NCBI GenBank assembly: GCA_919901555.1
Contig: CAKKPG010000022.1
Span: 1-64,000 of the forward strand
Source of the DNA: Nitrospiria bacterium
GTDB taxonomy: Bacteria > Nitrospirota > UBA9217
Reading direction: 5' to 3'
DNA length: 64,000 nt
The notes beneath the pieces are model-generated. The model saw nothing but the letters and a program-made list of their open reading frames with translations. It made no database searches and was not told the origin of the DNA. Positions 26,114-30,335 of the stretch are shown piece after piece (within the stretch, counting starts at the first letter, position 1; each line of letters opens with the position of its first letter). Made by a program: the position numbers and the translations under genes.

Positions 26114-26286
26114 TTCGATCTCCTCCTGGAACAATGTAATTTTGTTTGATTTTATCATCTCTTCCGCAAAATATCCAGAAAATTAATGTGAAAATTACCG
26201 CGCATTCACGGTATCATTACCTTGACCGTGGTTTCTCCCTCTGGTATATTTGCTCTATCAATTCACTTAATCCAGGAGGTGGTCCC

Positions 26287-27465
26287 ATGATTCGTTTTGC
26301 AAGGCTTCTCGTCATGCTGTCTTTATTGGTGCTCGCTGCCGCGTACACAGCGGCGGCGCAGGAAAGCAGGACCGTGGCTGCCGAGGGCGTGGCCATGGTG
26401 CAGCAGGGCGCCCTGGACATTGCCCGGGACGCAGCGGTGGAAGACGCCCAGAAAAGGGCGGTAGAACAGGCCATCGGGATCCTCATCGACTCCCAGACCC
26501 AGGTTGAGAACTATCAGGTCATCAGCGATAAGATCCTGTCGCAGACCAAAGGCTACATCAAGCGGTACAGCATCGCCGGCGAGGTGAACGAAGGCTCGCT
26601 CCTTCGGGTGCGCATCAATGCGGAAGTGGCGCTCGGGAAGCTGGGTGACGACCTCTCCGCCATCGGCATCCTCCTCGGCCAGATGCACAAGCCCCGGACC
26701 ATGATCATGATCGCGGAGCAGAACATCGGGCAAGAGCTCTACGCCTGGTGGTGGGGCGCCCATGGACAGCAGACGGACCTGAGCGTGGTGGAAAACACCA
26801 TCATCGACAAATTCACCGAAAAGGGCTTTGAATTCGTGGACCACCAGGTGGCCGCCAAAGAGATAAAAGTGACGGCAGGCTATAAAGTCCAGGACCTTAC
26901 CGCGGACCAGGCCCGGACCCTCGGCAACCAGGCTGACGCCGAAGTGGTGATCGTGGGCAAGGCGATTGCCAAACTCCAGGGAGAGATCGGGGGCGGCATG
27001 AAATCAGCCCAGGCCGATCTGTCCGCCAGGGCGGTCCGAACCGACACCGGCCAGGTCATTGCGTCCGCTTCGACCCACGGTGCGGCGGTGCATATCAGCG
27101 AAATGACCGCGGGAAATGAAGCGCTCAAGAAGGCCGCGGCCGAAGCGGCGGACCAGATGCTGACCAAGATCCTTGCCGTCTACTCCAAGGAGGTCGGCGG
27201 CACCCGTTCAATCGCCATCACGGTGAACGGGCTGACCAAGACCCAGTTCGTGAAGTTCAAGGACGTTCTCCGGAACCAGGTGCGCGGGATCAAAGACCTC
27301 CACGAGCGCAGCTTCGCCGGCGCCACGGCAAAGATCGCCGTTGACTCCAAGAGCAGCGCCCAGGTGTTGTCCGACGAGCTGACCATGAGGAACTTCGGCA
27401 CCTTCGCCGTCGAAGTCACCGGCTCGACCGCCAATTCTCTCGAGCTTAAAGTCGTTCCCAAGTAA
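26287..27465 (+). CDS. Secreted FlgT-N/LPP20-like domain protein
   Basis: Signal peptide MIRFARLLVMLSLLVLAAAYTAAA; TVAAEGVAMVQQGALDIARDAAVEDAQKRAVEQAIG; RBS CCAGGAGGTGG. Confidence 0.65.
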   Translation: MIRFARLLVMLSLLVLAAAYTAAAQESRTVAAEGVAMVQQGALDIARDAAVEDAQKRAVEQAIGILIDSQTQVENYQVISDKILSQTKGYIKRYSIAGEVNEGSLLRVRINAEVALGKLGDDLSAIGILLGQMHKPRTMIMIAEQNIGQELYAWWWGAHGQQTDLSVVENTIIDKFTEKGFEFVDHQVAAKEIKVTAGYKVQDLTADQARTLGNQADAEVVIVGKAIAKLQGEIGGGMKSAQADLSARAVRTDTGQVIASASTHGAAVHISEMTAGNEALKKAAAEAADQMLTKILAVYSKEVGGTRSIAITVNGLTKTQFVKFKDVLRNQVRGIKDLHERSFAGATAKIAVDSKSSAQVLSDELTMRNFGTFAVEVTGSTANSLELKVVPK

Positions 27466-27577: not shown

Positions 27578-27609
27578 GCAACTGCTCAGGTCAGCCGCTG
27601 AGCAGTTAC
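27578..27609. mobile_element. Minimal (32 bp) copy of TIR family A
   Basis: GCAACTGCTCAGGTC/GCTGAGCAGTTAC termini; abutted by direct repeats CTTTTGAG (27570-27577 and 27610-27617). Confidence 0.7.
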
Positions 27610-30335
27610 CTTTTGAGATATATCTTCTGGTCCGGGAAAATCAGGTCAGGGTTCGCTATTTTATTGTCCCGCGCCACCCGTGGATAATTGAAAGGGTTCC
27701 CGGTGAACCGTTTGGATATGGCCCAGAGCGTGTCGCCCTTTTTCACGATATACAAATCGGCATCCAGAGGCATTTCCGGCGGAACGGTCAGCGTGAGGGG
27801 CTCCGGCGGAGCAGCGGGCGCCGGTTTCTGCTTTGGCGCCTTCGGCTCGGCAACCGGTTTTTTCTCCGCGGCAGCGGTCTCAACAGGTTTACTTTTCCCG
27901 GCATCTTCCCTGCTCGATTTTATACCGATGCTTAATAGATACAGGACGACAAGTACCACGGCGGCGATCCCGGCATATTTCAGCCAGTTCCTGCCCTCTT
28001 TCTCCGCAATGGATTCAGGATAACCTTGCCGGCGCTCTGCGGGCTTCGGTGCGTATTCCTTCCGTTCCTCGCGAGGAGCAGCCTCCTCCAATGATTCCGC
28101 CGCCTCTTCGGACCCCGTTGCTCGTGACTCGTAAGCGCCTTGAAGCGCCGGATGCTCCTGTTCTTCCGGCCCCTCTTCAGCGGCACTCGCGTCGTGTCCG
28201 GAATCACCCGGGACTTCCGGTTCCGGTGACGGACCTGCCGGCTCCTGCTCTTCCTTCTCTGCTGTTCGGAAAATTGTGGGCTCCTCAGGCTTGCTGATCT
28301 CTGTTTCTTGTGAAGTTTCCTGAACAGCCTCCGGCCGCAGCTCTTCCGTCTGTTGCCGCTCCTCAGTGGATTCCCGGAATACCGCAGGTTCTTCCGTCAT
28401 CACAGATTCTTCCGTCCGCGCGGGCTCTTCAGCCTCAAGAGGTTCAGCAGGTTTCAGCTCTTCCGGGACAACGGGTTCACGATGTTCCGCTGCCGTCGGG
28501 ACAACGTCCTCTGATGATGTGACTTCAGGCTGAGGCTCGATTACCGCTTCCGGCTCAGGCGCTGCTTCGGACGTTGATATGCTCTCCGGTGGAGGAGCGG
28601 AGACGTGGTCTGCATCCGGATCCCTATGCACATCGAGCATTTGAACATCCGCAGGCAGCGTACCGAACTGAACCGTTGCTTCCGGTTCAGATAGCGCAGC
28701 CGCAGGTTTTTCAAAGCTTCCGGCTTCTTCGAGAGTTTTCTGGATCTCTTCGGCCTTTTTCCCGGCATCCACGGACGCCGCGTCCAGGGAAGCCGGAGAA
28801 GCCGTTGCTTCAACGGCCTCCTGCTGCGGAACGGCTATGGGCTGTCCCTCCCCTTCGGCCATTTCAGGCGCGGCCTCCGGCTCGATGAGCGAAGGAACGA
28901 GCTCCGACGGGGCTGCTTCCATCTCCTTCGAAATGGCCCTCAGGAATCCCTTGACGAGGGCCCTGTCGAAATGCACGGCAAGGGCTTCCACGTTCAAAAT
29001 AAGCCGCACTGAACTCGCTTCGGGATAGCACCCGTACACAACGTGATGGGGCAGCACAATGGGTACGCCGCGCTGCGCCTCCAACCCCACCCGGCGCGGC
29101 CCGTAAATGGCCTCGGTAATGACCAGGGCGCGAAAGTCGCCGTTCTTCACGAGAAGCATGCGCCACTCCGGCGTCACCAGGGACCTTCTGCCGAAGACCA
29201 TGGCAAGATCAAGCACGGGCAGCAGCTCCCCCTCATGCTCGGTCACACCGGCCACAATGGGCTGCACGTTCGGCACCCGGCGGTAGGGCTTGAAGTCGAG
29301 CGTATCCTGCACTTCCGACCGCGGAAGGGCATGGCGCGCCCCAAGGAGGGAAAACTCCGTCACCTCCACCTCTTCACTGCCGAAGAGGGAAAAGAACCGG
29401 GAGTCGGGAGAATACCGCTCCGGCAAGGGCTTATCGTCCTTGTCGCCGGGCTGCGCGGACAACAGCGCTCCCAGGTCAACAAGGGGCAGGATCTCTCCGT
29501 GACGCACGGCAGCAACGCGCATCCAGCGCGACAGGGCTATGGGAGGAAGCGGCTTGAGATGGAAATCCTTGCTGAAAAGGGCGCCCTGGTCGGCGTCGAT
29601 GAGGAACCCGAAGCCCGCGCCCCCGATCTCCGCCGGAAGCATACGGGTCACCGTCCCCTGCTGCGGCAGCTTCATGGTCTGCGCCAGATGGATGACGGGT
29701 ATCACCGTTCCCCGGTGAAAGGCGATGCCGCGCACATACTGGGGGATGAGGGCAAGGCCCGACACCCTGCCGGGCTTCACCGAGTCTTTTTCAATTCCCG
29801 CCGCCGCTGCGGCAAAGGGTTCGCCGCCGCTTTCAAAAACCCTGATGGCGTTTATGGACGAGACATCCAGGCGCCGTGGAGCCGATACGAGAAATTCCGC
29901 CATGGGCGGCTCACGGTCGGCCTTCTGCACCCGGGTATAGAGAAGGGAAATATTGATCACCGGAATGAGATGGGAAGCATGGACGACGCAGGTATCCAGA
30001 ACGGGCGTTTTCAGGTATCCGGGCATGGGATAGACGGCGTCATCAGGAACGGTGACAGGGGCGATGTCACCGGCTACGACGAAGCCCGTGATCGTTTCCT
30101 GCTCCGACATGATCAGGATATGGCCTTTCATCTGCCGGGACATGGGCGCAAGGCCGATGCAGACCGAGAGGTCCGCCAGGGTCGCCGTGCGGCCGTCAAG
30201 GATCGACATGCCGGCAATACACGTGGGAGACAGGGGCAGGCGATGAATGGTCTGGACGTCCTTAACGGACAGAACATCGTCTTTCCAGACGCCGTAGTTC
30301 ATGCCGCCCAGGTTGAGCAGCAGCAATTCTCTCAT
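27606..30335 (-). CDS. Triple CheW-like / Glu-Pro-rich linker / TM / C-terminal LysM protein
   Basis: Three CheW-like units (about aa 1-470), acidic linker, TM WLKYAGIAAVVLVVLYLLSIGI, LysM LYIVKKGDTLWAISKRFTGNPFNYPRVARDNKIANPDLIFPDQKIYL. Confidence 0.8.
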   Translation of the reverse strand: MRELLLLNLGGMNYGVWKDDVLSVKDVQTIHRLPLSPTCIAGMSILDGRTATLADLSVCIGLAPMSRQMKGHILIMSEQETITGFVVAGDIAPVTVPDDAVYPMPGYLKTPVLDTCVVHASHLIPVINISLLYTRVQKADREPPMAEFLVSAPRRLDVSSINAIRVFESGGEPFAAAAAGIEKDSVKPGRVSGLALIPQYVRGIAFHRGTVIPVIHLAQTMKLPQQGTVTRMLPAEIGGAGFGFLIDADQGALFSKDFHLKPLPPIALSRWMRVAAVRHGEILPLVDLGALLSAQPGDKDDKPLPERYSPDSRFFSLFGSEEVEVTEFSLLGARHALPRSEVQDTLDFKPYRRVPNVQPIVAGVTEHEGELLPVLDLAMVFGRRSLVTPEWRMLLVKNGDFRALVITEAIYGPRRVGLEAQRGVPIVLPHHVVYGCYPEASSVRLILNVEALAVHFDRALVKGFLRAISKEMEAAPSELVPSLIEPEAAPEMAEGEGQPIAVPQQEAVEATASPASLDAASVDAGKKAEEIQKTLEEAGSFEKPAAALSEPEATVQFGTLPADVQMLDVHRDPDADHVSAPPPESISTSEAAPEPEAVIEPQPEVTSSEDVVPTAAEHREPVVPEELKPAEPLEAEEPARTEESVMTEEPAVFRESTEERQQTEELRPEAVQETSQETEISKPEEPTIFRTAEKEEQEPAGPSPEPEVPGDSGHDASAAEEGPEEQEHPALQGAYESRATGSEEAAESLEEAAPREERKEYAPKPAERRQGYPESIAEKEGRNWLKYAGIAAVVLVVLYLLSIGIKSSREDAGKSKPVETAAAEKKPVAEPKAPKQKPAPAAPPEPLTLTVPPEMPLDADLYIVKKGDTLWAISKRFTGNPFNYPRVARDNKIANPDLIFPDQKIYLKR

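Follow-up and report, generated by a model that had tools for sequence, protein, structure and literature searches.

A CheW-LysM membrane protein of Nitrospirota and Desulfobacterota as a candidate tether between chemosensory arrays and the cell wall

The window, by which we mean the whole 64,000-nucleotide stretch of DNA analysed, contains a minus-strand gene at 27606-30335 whose 909-residue product joins three CheW units, a long low-complexity linker, a single transmembrane (TM) helix and a C-terminal LysM domain. This fusion protein is rare, and its layout is conserved across two phyla, Nitrospirota and Desulfobacterota, the latter being the name we use for a group of records labelled Deltaproteobacteria. 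We favour, at somewhat better than even confidence, the reading that it is an inner-membrane tether fixing a chemosensory array to the cell wall. The three CheW-fold units would bind CheA, MCPs or CheW by inserting into, or docking on, the cytoplasmic lattice of CheW, CheA-P5 and receptors; the long flexible linker would bridge array to membrane; the lone TM helix would span the inner membrane; and the LysM domain (OmpA in one relative) would grip peptidoglycan, holding the array at a polar or otherwise fixed place, with a ParA ATPase cooperating where one is present. One chain would then unite a ParP-like array insert with a wall-bound landmark (HubP, LysM), which are separate proteins in Vibrio. 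The observations behind this reading are the domain content, the CheW folds, the one TM helix, the conserved layout, linkage to che genes in two genomes, a natural swap of LysM for OmpA, and CheW units that lack the salt bridge needed for signalling.

The open reading frame list and translation bear out the gene described in the earlier note and place it on the minus strand, which that note left unstated; the CheW parts of orthologs are 31-61% identical with the reading frame conserved, which excludes a chance ORF. Searched one at a time, CheW units 1 (residues 3-131, 29943-30329), 2 (residues 166-294, 29454-29840) and 3 (residues 328-453, 28977-29354; these and the other parts of the protein lie on the minus strand) matched CheW (PF01584) with E = 3e-10, 2e-11 and 2e-13, respectively. 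Unit 2 is the most divergent of the three and unit 3, with its GELLPVLDLA segment, the most conserved. The AlphaFold check that had been proposed, run on residues 1-483 with a nine-sequence alignment, returned CheW folds (pLDDT 85.7, pTM 0.82); the nearest folds are CheW and CheA-P5, and all 18 PDB matches of the model at E<0.001 are CheW, CheA or complexes of these. By profile and by fold the protein belongs to PF01584, with the three N-terminal units originally proposed. The single TM helix and terminal LysM were likewise recovered: hydropathy of the window protein reveals one strong hydrophobic segment (residues 787-805, 27921-27977, mean Kyte-Doolittle 2.46), also a helix in AlphaFold, and none near the N-terminus, while Pfam places LysM (PF01476, E = 7e-10) at residues 862-907 (27615-27752). 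All CheW and LysM matches exceed Pfam's curated cut-offs. The C-terminal AlphaFold model consists of a 30-residue helix, a mostly disordered Pro/Ala/Lys-rich spacer (residues 806-861, 27753-27920), which we propose to be periplasmic together with the LysM, and a small domain whose helix-strand order fits LysM, so that profile and model agree.

Relatives were found in genome contigs using an ortholog alignment as query, a single-protein query having found none. The fusion gene is carried by 8 of the 14 genomes of the window's family (one copy is truncated by a contig end), and the same layout is full-length in seven family members and two Desulfobacterota-class genomes, a conservation that counts in favour of a tether. 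No further full-length relative was found among 396 genomes of the phylum, the one weaker match there being a 496-aa three-CheW protein that lacks TM helix and LysM (genome G448); in the class of SG8_13 a relative is present in 3 of 389 genomes. GTDB records in which a relative was seen include Nitrospirae bacterium GWC2_57_13 and GWC2_56_14 and 'Deltaproteobacteria' CSMAG_1936 and SG8_13, the last two with the full layout. Nearly all named carriers are metagenome-assembled genomes, in which misbinning may distort counts of presence and absence and leaves the architecture of a single ORF unaffected. Among the matches listed for the open-licence PMC literature none describes a CheW-LysM protein, and an earlier description elsewhere is possible.

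LysM is the best preserved part of the chain. Among nine LysM-bearing sequences, mean pairwise identity is 72% for LysM, above every other segment (38, 27 and 51% for CheW units 1, 2 and 3; 25% for the TM helix; 20% for the linker), and the excess of LysM over the CheW units (27-51%) again argues for a tether. The distant homolog in genome G337 (L137:2244-4802, minus strand) runs through CheW units, linker, TM helix and spacer and then ends in OmpA (PF00691, E = 2.4e-13), with LysM absent; none of the genes in the 10 kb examined around it is a che gene. OmpA and LysM are unrelated domains that both bind peptidoglycan, so finding them at the same place supports a periplasmic, wall-binding role, and the swap suggests that wall attachment itself matters, not a specific wall receptor. 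The linker preceding the helix (approximately residues 485-780, 27996-28883) is Glu/Pro/Ala-rich and of low complexity. Its description as an acidic stretch of about 300 residues suits the window protein (net charge -54) and does not extend to relatives: sequence, length (153-414 aa) and net charge (-62 to +6) vary across ten sequences, several relatives have coiled-coil-like stretches there, and we rejected acidity as a defining trait on account of that charge range.

Positive charge is greater on the N-terminal side of the TM helix in 7 of 10 orthologs, which, taken with the OmpA swap, suggests an N-in/C-out orientation; flanks are nearly balanced in the window protein itself, a result that counts against the tether. 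With this exception, LysM conservation, the OmpA swap and mostly N-in flanks favour the arrangement earlier envisaged, a cytoplasmic CheW array and a periplasmic peptidoglycan-binding end that reverse the HubP/FimV layout. Were LysM instead cytoplasmic, as in the potassium-binding protein Kbp, there would be no wall anchor at all. The domain does score against the Kbp model NF008399 and against Kbp structures, and the almost charge-balanced flanks of the window protein would suit such a topology, but a single TM helix between CheW units and LysM puts them on opposite sides, the charge bias of most orthologs runs the other way, and the OmpA found in its stead is an envelope domain. Moreover, when compared with the PDB the LysM region scores best against TsaP, a LysM protein belonging to the envelope machine of type IV pili. 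We regard the cytoplasmic topology as very improbable. The likeness to TsaP is confined to LysM: CheW domains are not known from TsaP, and the window's genome has a separate LysM protein of 411 aa (L055:2214-3449, minus strand, G000:C95) adjoining a PilT-family gene, which is possibly TsaP-like.

Individual residues of the CheW units bear on what they would do in an array. In CheW the E38-R62 pair (E. coli numbering) is reported to be required for signalling and dispensable for assembly (Ortega et al., PMC3828127). With E. coli and T. maritima residue numbers mapped onto the alignment manually from motif positions, this pair is complete in none of the 30 units of ten fusion proteins; the Arg62 equivalent is kept once, in unit 2 of the window protein, and unit 1 of that protein has Ser and Asp at the two positions. 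Both equivalents are retained in each of six ordinary CheWs taken from G041, G042 and the genome of the window. Judged by this conserved pair, the fusion units do not look like functional coupling proteins, and its loss in 30 of 30 units, beside its integrity in ordinary CheWs, counts for a tether. Pointing the opposite way, V27 of T. maritima CheW is part of the receptor groove (PMC5706961), and the equivalent position is charged in unit 1 of nine and unit 3 of seven of the ten sequences (unit 1 of the window protein among them), so that receptor binding may be lost. We read the units as kept for docking rather than signal transfer; the residue data equally allow repurposing.

The missing salt bridge also weighs on a sensory role, in which LysM would read the state or tension of peptidoglycan, pass a signal through TM helix and linker, and have the CheW units modulate CheA. 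Such a sensor would fit LysM being the best conserved part and the placement of the gene at che loci in two genomes. Set against it are the absence of the bridge in all 30 units, a low-complexity linker of 153-414 aa and 20% identity, which would conduct a conformational signal poorly, and the ability of an unrelated OmpA to stand in for LysM; we judge it quite unlikely.

Genomic neighbourhoods differ between the two phyla. In family carriers the fusion gene usually follows folD and precedes a convergent FlgT_N/FlgO-like gene, then pdxJ-acpS-nnrD; folD directly adjoins the FlgT-like gene in G006 and G007, both without the fusion, which marks the fusion as a discrete gain or loss at that site. 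In G003 this site too lacks the fusion, which is found on a different contig with an MCP gene as the first recognisable one downstream; apart from this neighbour, no che gene adjoins the fusion in the window's lineage, and flanks of folD and an unrelated conserved gene count against the tether. The same holds for CheA, of which the window's genome has four genes: fusion-less members also have CheAs, and a family-wide tie to one CheA type was rejected because CheAs occur in 14 of 14 family genomes, fusion present or not. The protein encoded by the FlgT_N/FlgO-like neighbour (26275-27465, plus strand) looks secreted and matches FlgT_N, FlgO and CsgG weakly. It is probably not flagellar, given that nearly all its family genomes lack FliP, and was dropped as a partner, since it occurs in 12 of 14 family genomes, some without fusion and without FliP.

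The picture is otherwise in the two Desulfobacterota-class genomes, G041 and G042, where every CheW match of the genome lies on a single contig, that of the fusion gene. The locus, as delineated by mechanical ORF picks checked in part against Pfam, encodes CheB, an MCP, CheW, a HAMP membrane protein, CheA, a second CheB and a zinc-ribbon ParA-type ATPase. In G042 the fusion gene follows parA on the same strand at a distance of 44 bp, and in G041 it lies at the opposite end of the che cluster, divergently oriented. The absence of cheA and mcp beside the gene, noted from the window, is therefore accurate for those 64 kb and fails at these two loci, as it does for the MCP neighbour in G003; its corollary of a 'stand-alone hub' has to be given up as a general statement, the gene sitting at the only che locus of both genomes with a ParA-type ATPase also there. 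This placement counts for a tether, and the ordinary CheW at both loci indicates that the fusion is not the only coupler there but an addition. The ATPases (L105:7104-8204, minus strand; L103:16299-17249, plus strand) are ParA/MinD-type proteins with an N-terminal Zn_ribbon_4, possibly dedicated to array positioning. When this zinc-ribbon ParA was sought in the window's family, strong matches spanned the ATPase part only, at the level of Soj/ParA, and the failure to find it in that family counts against the tether model.

Output appears to be other than flagellar. FliP is absent in 11 of 11 carriers (two family members are incomplete, at 74 and 83%) and PilT-family genes are present in 10 of the 11, G041 being the carrier with no PilT match at the threshold used. 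On this pattern the array, should one exist, probably works for type IV pili or some other output that is not flagellar. That the fusion and flagella exclude each other was considered and not upheld: the FliP-positive members, G006 and G012, both lack the fusion, and with n=14 the hypergeometric estimate of ~0.16 is not significant. The same genes could be taken to mean that the protein is a scaffold anchored in the wall and that its CheW-fold units now hold non-array cargo, such as the type IV pilus machine itself. Diverged CheW contact residues and the lack of adjoining che genes in most of the family speak for repurposing, as do FliP-less, PilT-bearing carriers; we nevertheless find it doubtful, because in two other genomes the gene lies at the sole che locus, in one of them beside parA, and because carrier G041 has no PilT match at that threshold.

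Array placement is known mainly from flagellated proteobacteria, via multi-protein chains. Comparison with those chains sets the proposed array tether in context, and the precedents of ParP and FimV count in its favour. In Vibrio, ParP integrates into arrays through a CheW-like domain and positions them with a ParA-like protein (PMC5706961), and the LysM of FimV binds peptidoglycan, FimV being needed for placement of a chemotaxis system (PMC12918733). The fusion resembles ParP/ParC in that a CheW/P5-like domain would hold an array at a particular place in the cell, with a ParA-like gene in the che locus of G041 and G042; in contrast, that ParA has a zinc ribbon, and no ParA-like gene shares a che locus with the fusion in the window's family. 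ParP has a ParC-binding N-terminus, a single C-terminal AIF domain and polar recruitment via ParC, whereas the fusion has three N-terminal CheW units, a TM helix and a wall-binding domain of its own, an order of parts that does not look like ParP. Shared with HubP/FimV are LysM, a single TM region and a long, unconserved, often acidic-rich cytoplasmic region; unlike them, the fusion has its LysM at the C-terminus, no evident signal peptide (those proteins pair an N-terminal one with a periplasmic LysM), and CheW units where they have a C-terminal FimV/TPR domain, for which no Pfam or NCBIfam model matched. By its predicted architecture it would fall in neither family, and it may work like both. 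We put at about even the chance that this is an undescribed form of array positioning, in which three signalling-dead CheW modules and an interchangeable LysM or OmpA, with zinc-ribbon ParA in Desulfobacterota, replace ParP-ParC-HubP. Such a tether would be a very short array-to-wall link, in bacteria without a FliP gene, and the fusion allows one to test cleanly whether units of the CheW fold can act as purely structural inserts that do not signal.

Some multi-CheW coupling proteins likewise carry three CheW domains in succession, among them those encoded by G448 and by a Synergistaceae MAG (L064); these differ from the fusion in being ~500 aa long, in keeping NLRG-type motifs and in having neither TM helix nor LysM. 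The G448 protein (L155:1477-2967, minus strand; NLRG/NLRD motifs) is encoded between MCP and CheB genes and is plausible as an ancestor-like form without membrane anchor. Elsewhere in the window's genome, L051:10976-16331 (minus strand, G000:C201) holds a chemosensory cluster of CheW, an ExeA-like AAA ATPase, CheA and a DUF4388-GAF protein, and G006 (L025) has an AAA-CheW pair like the one there.
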